NCBI GenBank assembly: GCA_944331805.1
Contig: CALVIS010000006.1
Coordinates: 1-37,719 of the forward strand
DNA: 37,719 nt
Reading direction: 5' to 3'
DNA from: an uncultured Bacilli bacterium
GTDB lineage: Bacteria; Bacillota_I; Bacilli_A; RF39; UBA660
Shown: piece after piece, positions 1,393 through 26,704 of the stretch
How the letters are laid out: each line of letters starts with the position of its first letter
How positions within the stretch are numbered: position 1 is the first letter of the stretch
The notes under the pieces: generated by a model
Told to the model about the DNA's origin: nothing
Seen by the model: the letters and a program-made list of their open reading frames with translations, nothing else
Databases searched by the model: none
Made by a program: the position numbers and the translations under genes

Positions 1393-3183
1393 TTAATTAT
1401 TAATACTTAAAACAAGGCGAAAAGAATGATCTGTAAAACTTCCACCATTAACCGATGTTGTCATAATTGAAAATATTCCTGCAACATTATCATTATTAGT
1501 TCTACCACCTCTTAATAACCAAACATTAGGAAAATTATTTAATTCATTATCATTATACCAATTATTGCTTTCAAACCCATGTGATAAGCATAAGTTCCCA
1601 TTACAAGCATCACTCACTGTATCACTTGTATATTTATCATAATATTTTGACTCTGGCATAATTTCAAAACCACTACTTCCTACTTCATCATTATAATTAC
1701 CCATGACATATTCTACAGAACCACCACTCATATCATATACACCATAGATATTTCCTGTTGTACTTGCACCTGTTCCATTTATATCTATATCATAAGTATA
1801 TTGACAGCCATAATCTGTATTTCCATTACTTTGACTACCATAACTACAACCTGTTATATATTGATCCGATTTATTTTGATATATCTCTTTATTCGCACCA
1901 CTAAAATTAGTATTTCCTAACTTACCATATTTAGACTGGCTAAGGTAACTAACTACAGTCCACTCGCTATTCTTCATCATATGAGCATCAATATTTTCAG
2001 TAAAACCGTATCTATTTCCTTCATCATTCATTTTTAAACTTACATGGAAAGCATTACTTACATTTATATTCCTCCAACTTGTTACATTTGGTTTTATCAT
2101 TGGATCTAGACTAGTAGTATTGCCTCCACCACTACTAAGAGAAGGATTACTACTACTTGTTTCAAACTTTCCTACCCATATTCCAGAAAGCTCCACATCT
2201 CCAAAAGTAAAAGCATCTGGGGTATACCAACTGTTATCTTTTATTCCTTCACTTACTAGGTATTTTGCACTTCCTTTTTCTTTAGTATCAGTATCAATAA
2301 ACTTTATATCTATCTCACCTGGTGATAATCTAGTTGGTATATTATCTAAATACTCTCCTTGCTTTCCATAATAATTTGTTCCATCTTCACTTCCTATACT
2401 GTAACTATACCTAGGTATCCATACCCACATTGTCTCTATATCATCCATATTTATTACTGTTCCTATATCTGCACTTAAATAGTTTTTTCTTGTAGCACTA
2501 CTAACAGTTACAGCATTAGCCCATTTTAATTCATCATAATTATACCAATTATTATCTTTATCTGTTTTAACCCAGTTAGTACCATTATATGTAACAGCAA
2601 TCATATTATCATCTAGTTCTGGTTCGTTAGGTTTTACTCTTTCTTGACTCACTTCTACTCTTAACTTACCACTAAAGACTTGACCACTATAATTTCCATC
2701 CACTTCATCAGTTATCCATAGTTTTAAATTATATTTATTAGCAGAATCACCTTCTATGGTTCCACTGTCCAAGACTCTACTTGAATTACTTTTTATACTT
2801 GTTAATAGAGAGGCTCCATTACTTATATTATTTTTAGTTAAGTTATATTTTAAATACTTATCATCAATTCTAGTATCAGTATCATCAATAGTATTATCAT
2901 CTAAATAAATGGTATAATCTACAGCCTTATTACCATTATTTCTTAATTCAAAAGTAGAACCATCTAAAGATAAGCCTTCACTATCACTTATACCTACGGC
3001 ATTATCTAAACTTATCCCTTCACTTGTTTCATCCAGTACTAAATCTAATGTTCCTACTTTTACAATCTCTTCACTACCAAATAACTCTGTTCTAAAATAA
3101 GCATAAGTTAATGCTAATAATAATATTAAAACTAGTAGTATACTTATAATCATTACTGTTATTTTATTCTTATTTTTCATCAT
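1393..3183 (-). CDS. SipW/TasA-type signal protein with C-terminal FGE-like domain
   Basis: A 596-residue exported protein. The N-terminus has a basic start, a long hydrophobic segment (about residues 8-28) and then TYAYF...VKVGTLDLVLDE, the pattern of SipW-dependent TasA/camelysin-type matrix proteins. A beta-rich segment follows (FELRNNGNKAVDYTIYL). The C-terminal ~300 residues resemble the formylglycine-generating-enzyme/C-lectin-like fold (GIWVGKFE, YGVYDMSGGSVEYVMGNY, LLRGGR near the end, FRLVLSI), probably as a binding or structural module rather than an enzyme. The start is ATGATG behind AAAGGAG; the second ATG has the better spacing. It is expressed through the unusual leader at 3188-3388. 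A cell-surface or spore-surface matrix role is inference. A second SipW/TasA-type gene with the same leader is at 14065-15909. Confidence 0.7.
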   Translation of the reverse strand: MMKNKNKITVMIISILLVLILLLALTYAYFRTELFGSEEIVKVGTLDLVLDETSEGISLDNAVGISDSEGLSLDGSTFELRNNGNKAVDYTIYLDDNTIDDTDTRIDDKYLKYNLTKNNISNGASLLTSIKSNSSRVLDSGTIEGDSANKYNLKLWITDEVDGNYSGQVFSGKLRVEVSQERVKPNEPELDDNMIAVTYNGTNWVKTDKDNNWYNYDELKWANAVTVSSATRKNYLSADIGTVINMDDIETMWVWIPRYSYSIGSEDGTNYYGKQGEYLDNIPTRLSPGEIDIKFIDTDTKEKGSAKYLVSEGIKDNSWYTPDAFTFGDVELSGIWVGKFETSSSNPSLSSGGGNTTSLDPMIKPNVTSWRNINVSNAFHVSLKMNDEGNRYGFTENIDAHMMKNSEWTVVSYLSQSKYGKLGNTNFSGANKEIYQNKSDQYITGCSYGSQSNGNTDYGCQYTYDIDINGTGASTTGNIYGVYDMSGGSVEYVMGNYNDEVGSSGFEIMPESKYYDKYTSDTVSDACNGNLCLSHGFESNNWYNDNELNNFPNVWLLRGGRTNNDNVAGIFSIMTTSVNGGSFTDHSFRLVLSINN

Positions 3184-3187
3184 CTTA

Positions 3188-3258
3188 CTCCTTTCATTAT
3201 TACACTCAAAAAAGAATAGAATTATCCTCTATTCTTTTAAGCCATAACGGAAGAAAGT
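3188..3258 (-). promoter_or_regulatory. Nested leader hairpins covering the Shine-Dalgarno (copy 1)
   Basis: An inner hairpin pairs 3228-3238 with 3210-3220 (11 bp, 7-nt loop) and is followed on the minus strand by six T, so it reads as a terminator or attenuator. An outer stem pairs the 5' arm ACTTTCTTCCGTTAT (3258-3244) with ATAATGAAAGGAG (3200-3188): 12 of 13 positions pair if G-U is allowed. The 3' arm contains the AAAGGAG ribosome binding site of the 1393-3183 gene. The folded form would therefore block transcription, translation, or both. Confidence 0.6.
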
Positions 3259-3300
3259 ATTTACTAGATACTTACTAAACTGCCCCCCCCCAGGTAACAT
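3229..3300 (-). other. Alternative leader reading frame, conserved in both leaders (copy 1)
   Basis: This is a 23-codon open frame beginning ATG-TTA-CCT, passing through the G9 tract as GGG-GGG-GGG, then encoding QFSKYLVNTFFRYGLKE and ending at TAG in the 5' arm of the inner hairpin. The second leader encodes QFSSNLVTFFHYDLRE in the same frame and stops at the same hairpin position. The two differ in length by exactly one codon. No Shine-Dalgarno precedes the ATG, so this frame is more likely entered from the leader ORF at 3275-3370 by slippage or a G-tract length change. Confidence 0.5.
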
Positions 3301-3370
3301 TTAGTAAACGAGAGCTAGTTGTAGATTTACAAATTATTTTTCCTTCTTTCATCTTAATTCCTTCTTTCAT
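3275..3370 (-). CDS. Leader peptide ORF ending at the G9 tract (copy 1)
   Basis: A 31-codon ORF starts at ATG 3370, with an in-frame ATG at 3352. Both starts are preceded by AAGAAGG supplied by an 18-bp tandem repeat. It begins six codons that repeat (MKEGIK), continues to LLNVTWGGAV and stops at TAG. The TGG-GGG-GGG-GCA codons are the G9 tract. The second leader ends in the same VTWGGAV-stop. The stop lies 17 nt before the SD-covering arm, so a ribosome finishing here would leave the downstream stem intact. This is a proposed leader peptide; expression is not shown. Confidence 0.5.
   Translation of the reverse strand: MKEGIKMKEGKIICKSTTSSRLLNVTWGGAV
3283..3291 (-). repeat. Homopolymer of nine G (C9 on the plus strand)
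   Basis: Nine consecutive C on the plus strand, in an otherwise very AT-rich region. The only other tract of this kind in the window is at 16009-16017, at the equivalent place in the second leader and with the same length. Such tracts are prone to slipped-strand length change. Confidence 0.9.
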
Positions 3371-3385
3371 CTTAATTCCTTCTTT
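3341..3385. repeat. 18-bp tandem repeat, 2.5 copies
   Basis: The unit TCCTTCTTTCATCTTAAT repeats at 3341-3358, 3359-3376 and partly at 3377-3385, directly after the stop codon of the 3386-4156 gene. On the minus strand each unit reads AGAAGGA...ATG, so it duplicates a ribosome binding site plus start codon for the leader ORF. The length is a multiple of three and preserves frame. Confidence 0.85.
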
Positions 3386-4156
3386 CTATTGTTCATTTCT
3401 TTCGCATGTATAACCACTATTTTCTAGTTCTTGTTCAATAGTAGTCACACTTTGATTTAACTCATACTCTGGATAAAATCCTTCAAACTCTGTAATATTA
3501 TTAGTAATAAAATCCATATCAAGTTTTTCATAATTTATATTTTGGGTAGTAACTTGTACTGCTGCACTTACACTACAATCTGCTGTCATACCAATATCAT
3601 TTTCATCTAAAACAGTCTTAAGAAACTCACAAGAATTTTCTCTTTCTGTTAAAATACTATTATCAGTTGCAGTATCTGCTAATCTATTAGTTGTAGTCAT
3701 TCTACTACTCTTTAATCTATTCTTCTCATACTTAAAACTTAAATCATAAGTATAATCTAAATTATCAGTAGAATTTTTAAAAGTACAACTCATAGTTCCA
3801 CTCTTTAATTCATTAACACCATTTTTTTCATTCATATAATTAGTTACATATTCAGTAATATCAGGTAGAAAATAAACAAAAGCGAAAAGAAATAACATTA
3901 ATAAAACAAGAAATACAGGATGTCCTTTTTTCTTTTTACCAGTAGTGTTTTCTTCTAATTTTACAGAAGTTGGAACTGTGTTATCTTGATTATTACTTGT
4001 ATTTACAGTCTGTTGATTAACTTCATTGGTATTAGAAGCTTCTACTACTTTAGGTTCATTATTCACTGGAGTAGAATTTACAGTGTTATCAGTTCCAGGT
4101 GTTACCACTTTAGGAGTTTCTTCATTAATTTTATTATTATCATTTTTATTATCCAT
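3386..4156 (-). CDS. Membrane-anchored DUF1307-like protein
   Basis: A 256-residue protein of unknown function. The first ~80 residues are rich in Asn, Thr and Val and should be cytoplasmic. A KKKKGH stop-transfer precedes one membrane segment (about residues 82-102). The outer domain begins with GTMSCTFKN and ends with NSGYTCERNEQ. That layout (an early M-x-C and a late S/N-x-G-x-x-C pair) matches the lipoprotein at 31457-31930 and resembles DUF1307/YehR lipoproteins. The gene follows rpe after 57 bp and has its own candidate promoter inside the rpe 3' end. It ends directly before the leader of the SipW/TasA-type gene. A similar order (membrane protein, leader, SipW/TasA-type gene) recurs at 17252-14065. 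Confidence 0.55.
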   Translation of the reverse strand: MDNKNDNNKINEETPKVVTPGTDNTVNSTPVNNEPKVVEASNTNEVNQQTVNTSNNQDNTVPTSVKLEENTTGKKKKGHPVFLVLLMLFLFAFVYFLPDITEYVTNYMNEKNGVNELKSGTMSCTFKNSTDNLDYTYDLSFKYEKNRLKSSRMTTTNRLADTATDNSILTERENSCEFLKTVLDENDIGMTADCSVSAAVQVTTQNINYEKLDMDFITNNITEFEGFYPEYELNQSVTTIEQELENSGYTCERNEQ

Positions 4157-14064: not shown

Positions 14065-15909
14065 TTAGCTTGCAAGTTCAATTTCAAATGGATTTTGAAT
14101 GGTCCCATCACCCGAGGTTATGATAATATTTTGTTTTAGATTTACGGAAGGTAAAATAGAATTTTCCAAAAAAATTTCATTGTAAATTACATTACCGCTA
14201 GTATCTAAATTATATATCCCAAACAGACTAGCATAAGACAACAAAGAGTATTTAGTATTATTTCCATATCCATAAAATTGACCAGCCATTAATTCTCCAT
14301 ATCTTAGTAACCCTACTTTTGCTTCAGTACTTGTTGTATAATTTGACATATTTAAATCAGTATATTTTGCATATTTATATGAAGCGTTTTGTATTCTTCC
14401 TAAATACCAAATAGTACTATCTTCTATCATTTCTACTTGTTCACTAGTCAAATAAACATCACTATTTAAATATTCGCCATTTAGAAAACTTCCTATTGTA
14501 TTAGAACTAGAATAAGATGATGTGTCTCCAAAAGATATGGTTTTAAATGTACTATTCTCTTTTAACGGTTCAGAACTTATTATTTTAGTCAATCCTTCTG
14601 TTTCATGGCTTACTATCCTATATAGATTGTTTTCTCCTGTTCCAAAAGTTATATATTCCCCACTATATCTTGTATTTAATAGTGTTCCTTCTAGATTAAT
14701 ATCATTATCACCTTCTAATCTATAAGGATTTTCTGCACTTCCATCGCCATCTACTATCTTTATTGCTGGTTTTAAATTTATTGATGGTCTTATACCATGA
14801 GCAAAATATGAATTTACATCTGTATTAATATTTTCACTACTACTATTTATTTCATAATTACGAACAGTTGATGCTGTATATGGTGTCATCATCCACCAAC
14901 TAAGTCCATTATTTAAATAACTATTATAAATTGCTACACCACTACTACTCATTTTAAATTCATAAATATTTAAAAGTCCTACTGGATCCTCAACTATTGA
15001 CTCTTCATCAGCAGGTCTTGTTACTTCGCTTAAATTCCTATCATCTAACATTGCATTCCATCTACTATCCATCTTGATAAACTTATCTGGCTCTCTTAAA
15101 TTATATAGAAAACCATCTACTGTCGTATCATTTAACCAGGCTTCCATGTAACTTCCTTCAAAAGCACTACTATCATTATCATATGATATTGAACTTATAT
15201 TCCATTGTGTCACTAACTTTACACTATTATCACTAGGATCTATACTTACTACTCTCCATAATTTACCAGAATACCAAATGTAATTGTAAGGATTGCTTCC
15301 CGTTACAAAGGTCTGTTCAGAATCTTCATAATTTAATCTATTCATGATATCATCGTCTATTACTTCTTTAACTGTCCCTGTTGATGTTATCTTTCTTAGT
15401 AAATGTCCATCACTTGGTAAATCTAAGTCATTATAATCTAGTCCTACATTCACTCCTAATTCTATACTTATTTCACTTTCTGTAGTATTAGCAACTCTCA
15501 CTATATATGTATTACTACTTCCTGTTGTGTCTACTTTCTCTAAGTTTACTCCTGTACTAGATGGTGGAGTATTTACTCCTTCTTTTTCTATATATCCTAT
15601 ATCTACTCCATCTGCTAAGTCTCCTACATAATAAAAGTTAAATCTTCCTACTCTATTATTAGGGTTAGATAAAGTTACTATAAAGTCTTTTCTACTATTA
15701 GATGGTACTGTTAAAGTATTTGTTTCTTTATCATCCACTAATAACTTATAAGTTAAATTGCCTGTTACTATACTTATGGCATTTTCTTTTTCTTTTGTTA
15801 CTGTAAACATTGCATAAGAGAAATATCCTCCTAATATTAATAGAGTTATTATTATCATTATTATCATATATATCTTACTAAAACTTGTTTCTAATAATAA
15901 TCTTTTCAT
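14065..15909 (-). CDS. SipW/TasA-type signal protein with two DUF6273-like domains
   Basis: A 614-residue exported protein. A long N-terminal hydrophobic segment (IIMIIITLLILGGYFSYAMF) is followed by a TasA/camelysin-like stretch (SIVTGNLTYKLLVD, then KDFIVTLSNPNN). Two related modules follow, resembling DUF6273 domains. The first runs YIWYSGKLWRVV, WWMMTP, GIRPSINLKPAIKIVDGDGSAENPYRL. The second runs NLYRIVS, LPSVNLKQNIIITSGDGTIQNPFEI. The same ending occurs in the next gene (RPTVMLNNNVMIKSGNGSESNPYIL). ATG 15909 is chosen for its GAAAGGAAGG site; the upstream ATG at 15954 lies in the attenuator hairpin. The SipW-type head and the leader are shared with the 1393-3183 gene. A surface-matrix role is inference. 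Confidence 0.65.
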   Translation of the reverse strand: MKRLLLETSFSKIYMIIMIIITLLILGGYFSYAMFTVTKEKENAISIVTGNLTYKLLVDDKETNTLTVPSNSRKDFIVTLSNPNNRVGRFNFYYVGDLADGVDIGYIEKEGVNTPPSSTGVNLEKVDTTGSSNTYIVRVANTTESEISIELGVNVGLDYNDLDLPSDGHLLRKITSTGTVKEVIDDDIMNRLNYEDSEQTFVTGSNPYNYIWYSGKLWRVVSIDPSDNSVKLVTQWNISSISYDNDSSAFEGSYMEAWLNDTTVDGFLYNLREPDKFIKMDSRWNAMLDDRNLSEVTRPADEESIVEDPVGLLNIYEFKMSSSGVAIYNSYLNNGLSWWMMTPYTASTVRNYEINSSSENINTDVNSYFAHGIRPSINLKPAIKIVDGDGSAENPYRLEGDNDINLEGTLLNTRYSGEYITFGTGENNLYRIVSHETEGLTKIISSEPLKENSTFKTISFGDTSSYSSSNTIGSFLNGEYLNSDVYLTSEQVEMIEDSTIWYLGRIQNASYKYAKYTDLNMSNYTTSTEAKVGLLRYGELMAGQFYGYGNNTKYSLLSYASLFGIYNLDTSGNVIYNEIFLENSILPSVNLKQNIIITSGDGTIQNPFEIELAS

Positions 15910-15914
15910 ATTTA

Positions 15915-15987
15915 CCTTCCTTTCATTATTACATGCAAAAAAGAATAAAATCATCCTCTATTCTCTTAAGTCATAATGAAAGAAAGT
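15915..15987 (-). promoter_or_regulatory. Nested leader hairpins covering the Shine-Dalgarno (copy 2)
   Basis: The inner hairpin pairs AGAATAGA (15964-15957) with TTTATTCT (15949-15942) across a 7-nt loop and is followed by six T. The outer stem pairs CTTTCTTTCATTAT (15986-15973) with ATAATGAAAGGAAG (15929-15916): 14 consecutive positions with one G-U. It covers the GAAAGGAAGG ribosome binding site. Copy 1 folds the same way with several substitutions. Confidence 0.65.
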
Positions 15988-16026
15988 AACTAAATTACTA
16001 CTAAACTGCCCCCCCCCAAGTAACAT
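15958..16026 (-). other. Alternative leader reading frame, conserved in both leaders (copy 2)
   Basis: A 22-codon open frame from ATG-TTA-CTT through GGG-GGG-GGG, then QFSSNLVTFFHYDLRE and TAG in the inner-hairpin arm. Against copy 1 there is one codon deletion, three synonymous changes (CTA/TTA, GTA/GTT, TTC/TTT) and mostly modest replacements (R/H, K/R). It has no own ribosome binding site. Confidence 0.5.
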
Positions 16027-16048
16027 ATTGTAAACATAATTTTCTCAT
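16001..16048 (-). CDS. Leader peptide ORF ending at the G9 tract (copy 2)
   Basis: Fifteen codons encode MRKLCLQYVTWGGAV, ending at TAG directly after the nine-G tract. An AAGAAGG site lies 9 bp before the ATG. The last seven residues and the stop match copy 1 exactly, while the upstream codons differ. A one-base loss from the G tract would fuse it to the alternative frame at 15958-16026. Confidence 0.5.
   Translation of the reverse strand: MRKLCLQYVTWGGAV
16009..16017 (-). repeat. Homopolymer of nine G (C9 on the plus strand)
   Basis: The second nine-C tract of the window, in the same context as 3283-3291 (GTTAC-Y-T before and CAGTTTAGTA after, minus strand). Both copies have nine in this assembly. 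Confidence 0.9.
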
Positions 16049-16073
16049 GTTTTTTTACCTTCTTTCTTATTTT

Positions 16074-21343: not shown

Positions 21344-21751
21344 GTGAAAGAAAAGAAAGATACTTGTTGTTTAGGTAAATTATTAAAGGTTATTGATATA
21401 TTACAAAGAAATGCCGGAGGTAGTGATTGTTTTGATGAGTCTTGTACTAGACCTTATTTAGGAAGTAGTCCTAATATTATTTGTTTTAATACAAGACCAG
21501 TTACTTTCTATACTAGAAATGGTAATATCTTTAGTACTACTTATACATTAAATGGAACTACTAATACTTCATCTGTTTTTAGAGTGGAGTCAGTAGATGA
21601 TTGCTGTGTTAAATGTCGTATCTTAAGACCTAATCCTGATACTACTGATATAAATAGAACATATCTTGCTACTAATGAGTTTATAACTATTAATTTAGAT
21701 TGTATCTGTGTTGTTAGTTGTTTAGATGATATTATTATTGATAATTTATAA
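21344..21751 (+). CDS. CotY/CotZ-type spore coat protein
   Basis: A 135-residue cysteine-rich protein like the CotY/CotZ crust proteins of Bacillus, which form disulphide-linked outer coat lattices. Family-like blocks: CCLGKLLKVIDILQ at the start, a PYLGSSPNIICFNTRP middle, SSVFRVESVDDCCVKCRIL, and the ending FITINLDCICVVSCLDD (CotZ: VDLDCFCAINCL). It starts with GTG behind AGAGGTGGTG. The next gene is a paralogue 14 bp downstream. Expression from the sigma-K-like site upstream is inferred. Confidence 0.8.
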   Translation: MKEKKDTCCLGKLLKVIDILQRNAGGSDCFDESCTRPYLGSSPNIICFNTRPVTFYTRNGNIFSTTYTLNGTTNTSSVFRVESVDDCCVKCRILRPNPDTTDINRTYLATNEFITINLDCICVVSCLDDIIIDNL

Positions 21752-21765
21752 AAGGAGGATAATTT

Positions 21766-22164
21766 ATGTGTGATGATAAAAGTTGCTTAACATCCATATT
21801 AGAGACTATTCTTTGCCTACAAAATGCTAAAGATGATGATTGCGAAACATTTGGATGTGATAAGCCTTATTTAGGTCCTACTCCTAGTTTAGTGTGCTAT
21901 AACACAAGACCAATAAACTTATATAATTGTACAACTGGGGAACTATGGTCTTTTCCTTATACTCTTGGAACAGTTAATTCAACTTCTTCTATCTTTAGAC
22001 TTGAAAACTTAGAAGGTAATTGTTGTACTTGTAGAGTTTTAGCACAGAACCCTGATACTAGTAGTAGTGAACCTTATGTTTTAACTAGTACATTCTTTAC
22101 TATTAATCTAGATTGCGTCTCTGCTATTAGATGTTTACCTGATGTCTTTATAAGTGGTGTTTAA
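21766..22164 (+). CDS. CotY/CotZ-type spore coat protein (paralogue)
   Basis: A 132-residue paralogue of the preceding gene, with the same order of blocks: CLTSILETILCLQN, PYLGPTPSLVCYNTRPINLY, SSIFRLENLEGNCCTCRVL and FFTINLDCVSAIRCLPD. Several cysteines are shifted relative to the first copy, which would let the two form different disulphides. The ATG has a strong AAGGAGG site. It is co-transcribed with the first copy and ends at a bidirectional terminator. Confidence 0.8.
   Translation: MCDDKSCLTSILETILCLQNAKDDDCETFGCDKPYLGPTPSLVCYNTRPINLYNCTTGELWSFPYTLGTVNSTSSIFRLENLEGNCCTCRVLAQNPDTSSSEPYVLTSTFFTINLDCVSAIRCLPDVFISGV

Positions 22165-26020: not shown

Positions 26021-26704
<684 letters not shown>

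Follow-up and report, generated by a model that had tools for sequence, protein, structure and literature searches.

In Campylobacter, poly-G contingency loci are hypermutable G tracts with typical lengths near 9–10. In erm-type attenuation, a Shine-Dalgarno (SD) sequence is hidden in a stem, which is opened when a leader open reading frame (ORF) is translated. Phase variation by a repeat within a leader peptide has one worked-out example in the literature that we found. In S. gallolyticus pil1, translation of the leader peptide stops either ahead of a terminator or within it, depending on the number of GCAGA repeats, as was shown with repeat variants, by deleting the terminator, and by mutating the start codon (PMC3894217). 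Here we compare with these systems a leader in a 37,719-nt stretch of DNA from an uncultured Bacilli bacterium (contig CALVIS010000006.1; hereafter, the window). An earlier interpretation made from the letters alone, the sequence-only reading, had proposed that a G9 tract in this leader could switch a surface-protein gene on and off by reading frame.

The leader and its second copy in the window

The leader lies on the minus strand, between two genes, and comprises the following features.

3183-3388, minus strand: leader copy 1, flanked by genes of 256 aa (3386-4156) and 596 aa (1393-3183)
3379..3388, minus strand: SD-like AGAAAGAAGG of the leader ORF, overlapping the upstream gene (3386-4156) at its stop codon and conserved in other copies
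3275..3370, minus strand: leader ORF in frame 0, 31 aa, MKEGIKMKEGKIICKSTTSSRLLNVTWGGAV, the short, predicted OFF form; second in-frame ATG at 3352-3350
3283..3291, minus strand: G9 tract, the proposed slippage site; length 5-12 in relatives
3229..3282, minus strand: distal reading frame, QFSKYLVNTFFRYGLKE-stop, which joins the leader ORF only when the tract has 8 or 11 (2 mod 3) G
3186..3259, minus strand: predicted outer stem, a CUUUC anti-SD arm (about 3259-3244) with the SD arm (about 3200-3186)
3208..3238, minus strand: inner terminator-like hairpin (3238-3227/3221-3210), then a U run; the distal stop TAG, 3231-3229, is in the 5′ arm
3188..3194, minus strand: SD AAAGGAG of the surface-protein gene, identified by sequence
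1393..3183, minus strand: putatively controlled gene, encoding 596 aa; N-terminal membrane helix of the TYAYF type, no confirmed family

A base-by-base check recovered every element described for the leader ORF: in-frame ATGs at 3370-3368 and 3352-3350, each preceded by AAGAAGG, then the G9 tract, with frame 0 running ...NVTWGGAV into a TAG at 3277-3275. The two starts arose from an exact 18-nt duplication. The claim that 8 or 11 G would join a distal frame ending at a TAG in the hairpin is likewise correct, since the +1 frame past the window tract reads QFSKYLVNTFFRYGLKE and its TAG (3231-3229) falls within the hairpin 5′ arm. In this copy the OFF stop ends at 3275, the hairpin starts at 3238, and the ON stop is at 3231-3229. 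Fold prediction gives −22.2 kcal/mol for the hairpin (z −4.1) and −10.9 for the inner terminator-like stem (z −3.3). The surface-gene SD falls within this hairpin with a mean predicted pairing of 0.92, in agreement with the proposal that the hairpin hides it; this is a structure prediction only.

The sequence-only reading overlooked a second copy of the leader in the window, as well as the genus-wide family to which both belong.

15909-16060, minus strand: leader copy 2, adjoining the preceding gene and standing before a 629-aa ORF; also G9
16001..16048, minus strand: leader ORF of copy 2, MRKLCLQYVTWGGAV-stop, the predicted OFF form
16009..16017, minus strand: G9 tract of copy 2
15958..16008, minus strand: distal frame of copy 2, QFSSNLVTFFHYDLRE-stop
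15937..15967, minus strand: terminator-like hairpin of copy 2 (15967-15956/15950-15939) plus U run; predicted outer stem involving the SD region of the gene
14065..15909, minus strand: second putatively controlled gene, MKRLLLETSFSKIY..., with an N-terminal membrane helix and a weak DUF6273 match below the curated cut-off

The true start of the second gene is probably the ATG at 15909. By frame arithmetic, both window copies, each with G9, are predicted to be OFF. Seven-G matches in the window were expected 0.19 times; the six overlapping matches present are the two G9 tracts, both within leader copies. Thus, the poly-G of these leaders is not a chance occurrence.

Reading frames around the tract

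A first frame set comprised 80 leader copies with a CAGTTTA junction. Eight distances between the tract and the conserved CUUUCUU arm occur in this set, and each of them keeps the distal ORF open. The distal frame falls into two classes (65 vs 15 copies) and is in frame at G9 in none. An SD and ATG sit in the proximal frame in 64/80, whereas the other frames have them in 4 and 0; the ORFs are of 14 lengths. In the wider set of 155 distinct copies, no stop interrupts the distal frame between the tract and the terminator-like hairpin in any copy, whereas the other two frames are open in 2 and 0 (closed in 153 and 155); a leader start with its SD is found in the proximal frame in 140/155 when ATG, GTG, or TTG is allowed. 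When only unique segments are counted (94 segments of 21 lengths), the distal frame is open in 94/94 vs about 25 expected from shuffles, and the other two are open in 2 and 0 vs about 22 and 28. For this reason, selection appears to have kept the distal frame open and the other two closed, as far as can be judged from sequence comparison. The variation in segment length argues that the pattern is not one inherited accident. The copies are related rather than independent, so that these figures overstate independence.

Tract length and predicted state

Across the genus the tract ranges from 5 to 12 G with a mode of G9 (155 distinct copies), and an A or T interrupts the G run in some copies. Relatives all carrying G9 had been set beforehand as an outcome that would refute the switch; G9 is not fixed. 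ON and OFF states were assigned by frame arithmetic from the V-T codon frame, which predicts 17 copies to be joined (ON), 133 to be unjoined (OFF), and 5 to be stopped before the tract. G9 is found in 85 of the 150 ON or OFF copies, an excess which may mean that the tract mutates slowly or that it is held at OFF. An out-of-phase distal frame at G9 holds without exception in the 80 copies of the CAGTTTA subset, but as a generalization it was rejected: G9 gives the joined frame in three copies (L220, L223, L239). The claim that G9 is the OFF state is therefore right for both window copies but does not extend to these three.

Two pairs of leaders, each drawn from different genomes, differ only in G number. 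Copy L032, on contig 5 of the window genome (G11, joined), and L077 (G9, unjoined) are otherwise identical over 143/143 leader positions, and the next 700 nt downstream are 100% identical. L226 (G10) and L239 (G9) are otherwise identical over 144/144 positions, and the predicted state flips between them. Between the window genome and its close relative CAMMMH01, tract length differs at four of seven shared sites. All tract lengths are metagenome assembly consensus without a read check, and homopolymer consensus can be wrong.

Five leaders (L154, L156, L188, L208, L229) carry a stop codon ahead of the tract; such leaders would be locked OFF and unable to switch. L154, like L152, precedes a gene that has apparently decayed.

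Proposed mechanism

The range of tract lengths, the opposite predicted states of two otherwise identical leader pairs, and frame use that looks selected all support the phase-switch interpretation of the sequence-only reading. We consider it likely that the leader is a reading-frame phase-variation switch, in which the number of G decides whether the leader ribosome opens the attenuator hairpin; the effect on expression and the switching within populations are inferred. Slipped-strand mispairing during replication would alter G number. In the joined frame, a translating ribosome would end on the hairpin 5′ arm and block hairpin formation, so that RNA polymerase would pass, the surface-gene SD would be freed, or both (ON). 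In the other frames the ribosome would leave early, the hairpin would form, and the gene would stay low (OFF). This model is built without expression, ribosome, or read-level data. Because there are up to dozens of leaders per genome and about one in ten is joined, each lineage would display a small, changing subset of surface proteins.

The strong G9 mode, at which almost every copy has its distal frame out of phase, could instead reflect programmed slippage: the tract would be held at its length while ribosomes or RNA polymerase slip at a set rate, producing steady low read-through and no heritable switch. We find this improbable, since tract length varies, some tracts are broken by A or T, and identical leaders carry different G numbers. 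Moreover, two distal frame classes (65 and 15 of 80) behind the same tract would need opposite slip directions. The criterion for programmed frameshifting, a fixed slippery sequence and one shift direction, is not met by the leader copies.

Predicted hairpin formation and Shine-Dalgarno hiding

All 57 distinct hairpins tested are followed by a U run and are stabler than shuffles, each with z below −2 (mean z −4.5). RNAalifold applied to the full 53-row alignment proposed a pairing of the G tract with CUUUC that lacked covariation; it was rejected because hairpin subtypes misalign, and we therefore relied on single-sequence folds and an anchored pair count. By that count, one stem position alternates between C-G (23) and U-A (34), and covariation is limited to some compensated pairs. 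By position, the joined-frame stop lies 26–32 nt past the CUUUC arm, inside the hairpin 5′ arm, in 149/150 ON or OFF copies, whereas unjoined stops are almost always ahead of the CUUUC arm. The SD of the downstream gene is predicted to be paired in 118/139 tested copies and unpaired in 21. In one leader subtype (L101, L103, L111, L116, L258, L259), a second inverted repeat (TATAATGTCAAAAATATTGATATTTTTGACATTATA or similar) follows the first hairpin, and the gene SD sits further downstream.

The sequence-only reading had invoked erm-type control of the SD. The predicted SD hiding agrees with this in most copies, but the element common to the copies is the terminator-like hairpin, and transcription attenuation is therefore no less probable than erm-type translational control. 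Transcription attenuation is the predicted common denominator, termination itself being inferred, with SD hiding as a predicted second layer in most copies. A ribosome that reached the distal stop would be inferred to disrupt both.

A leader ORF followed by a hairpin is the classic arrangement of an ordinary leader-peptide attenuator, and the end of the leader peptide is conserved as LQxVTWGG, on which ribosomes might stall in a metabolite- or drug-dependent manner and so control the hairpin. Such an attenuator leaves unexplained both the variable tract length and an open distal frame that is kept out of phase with the leader, and the genes behind these leaders encode surface proteins rather than one pathway. 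We judge it very unlikely.

Distribution of the leader

A search model built from 53 copies found the leader in 34 of the 35 genomes of the genus, with up to 36 copies each. The same model did not find it in any other sampled genus of the family or order, and no copies were found in viral contigs. Candidatus Onthousia excrementipullorum and O. faecipullorum are named records carrying the leader, from which we infer that the window genus is apparently Candidatus Onthousia. An Rfam search of the window returned tRNAs only.

Fourteen leader sites could be parsed in the window genome (1.37 Mb, 69% complete). The tract is 9 long at ten sites (G6AGG in one case), and lengths 7, 10, 11, and 12 occur once each; two sites are predicted to be joined (C5, G11; C37, G12) and twelve to be unjoined. 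Runs of at least 8 G number 12 in the whole genome, all 12 inside leader copies and at places that the search model also matched. Intergenic leaders (for example L007, L073, and L106) have a recurring TGNTAATATTAAGTTAACA motif just 5′ of the leader SD, which resembles an extended −10 promoter. Both window copies, unlike these intergenic leaders, adjoin the preceding gene.

A length-variable poly-G in an mRNA leader could also be the target of a small RNA, in the style of RepG/tlpB, for which the available part of PMC8295292 provides a precedent; G number, not frame, would then tune expression. Such a model has no need of frame conservation and does not predict the frame pattern. Furthermore, no run of at least 8 C was present outside leader antisense in the incomplete window genome, with the proviso that pairing may be imperfect. 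The model is not excluded, but we give it very little weight.

The putatively controlled surface genes

Downstream genes encode an N-terminal membrane-anchor helix in 142 of the 144 cases with enough sequence. These helices are strongly hydrophobic and fall into a few recurring types (SFSKIY, SYAAF, TYAYF, and SYALL); the two genes without one are a single orthologous pair. Pfam and NCBIfam gave no firm family for the window surface proteins and, for the downstream gene, no match to a curated TasA or SipW profile. Thus, the SipW/TasA-type label given by the sequence-only reading could not be confirmed and remains a resemblance only, although the membrane-anchor helix is present. An FGE-sulfatase or C-type-lectin-like part is no more than a below-cut-off hint, and the structure model of the 596-aa protein (mean pLDDT 33.5) is too poor for a structure search. 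Elsewhere in the window, on the plus strand, 26060-26704 encodes a 214-aa collagen-like Gly-X-Thr repeat protein, and 21344-22164 holds two adjacent, clearly related cysteine-rich ORFs of 135 and 132 aa.

In three pairs of copies (L005/L034, L041/L075, L009/L121), upstream flanks are 97–99% identical between genomes and the surface gene only 68–79%, as though gene cassettes had been exchanged with the leader as the seam; this is inferred from sequence. Differing cassettes behind near-identical upstream flanks, in metagenome assemblies, might mean that the leader is merely a dispersed repeat serving as terminator and recombination seam, its tract variation being incidental or introduced in assembly. 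Against this, the pattern of a single open frame beside two closed ones recurs over 155 copies and 21 spacer lengths, and the leader SD and start lie in the matching frame; we find such an absence of regulation scarcely credible.

Returning to the reading-frame switch, a broader proposal is that it underlies surface display throughout the genus: a portable poly-G leader, its one open and two closed frames kept by selection, would stand before dozens of interchangeable membrane-anchored proteins, each lineage would express a small random subset of them, and the leader would also act as the cassette-swap seam. On this proposal, the evidence leaves us evenly divided.

Comparison with known systems

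If the switch is real, a homopolymer would serve as a general-purpose switch across the whole surface repertoire of uncultured gut Bacilli. Since its states are readable from sequence alone, metagenomes that already exist could reveal the surface proteins in the ON state in each host, and bet-hedging in uncultured commensals would become directly testable.

The sequence-only reading named no described system with a poly-G leader ORF ahead of a SipW/TasA-type gene. A term search of a 2025 phase-variation review (PMC11868660), which also lists work related to the Campylobacter poly-G loci, gave no mention of leaders or attenuation. We found no paper on a poly-G leader version or on switching in this genus, subscription literature being outside the search. 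To this extent the statement stands, but the class of mechanism is known from pil1.

The Campylobacter loci differ in that the coding gene usually carries its own tract, whereas here a separate leader ORF would control an intact gene. Erm-type attenuation depends on a drug-stalled ribosome; here the outcome would be set by tract length, and a terminator-like hairpin is also present. H. pylori RepG/tlpB shares a length-variable G tract in an mRNA leader but, according to the available part of the source, acts via a small RNA and not a reading frame, without conserved leader ORF frames (PMC8295292).

The closest likeness is to pil1 and pil3 of S. gallolyticus (PMC3894217), where a simple repeat also lies in a short leader ORF, a surface-structure gene is controlled, a minority is ON, and the OFF frame stops before the terminator hairpin while the ON frame stops in or at it. 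In sequence, the leader has the features of a pil1-type switch: a leader ORF with its own ribosome binding site, a variable repeat, a hairpin with a U run, and short- and long-frame stops. The two systems differ in that pil1 and pil3 use a GCAGA pentamer at two pilus operons, whereas here a G homopolymer stands ahead of as many as 36 genes in a genome, an outer stem that hides the SD is often predicted, and only one of three frames reaches the hairpin. Leader-peptide phase variation is thus known; what would be new here, on sequence evidence, is the homopolymer, the one open and two closed frames, and the dispersed repertoire.
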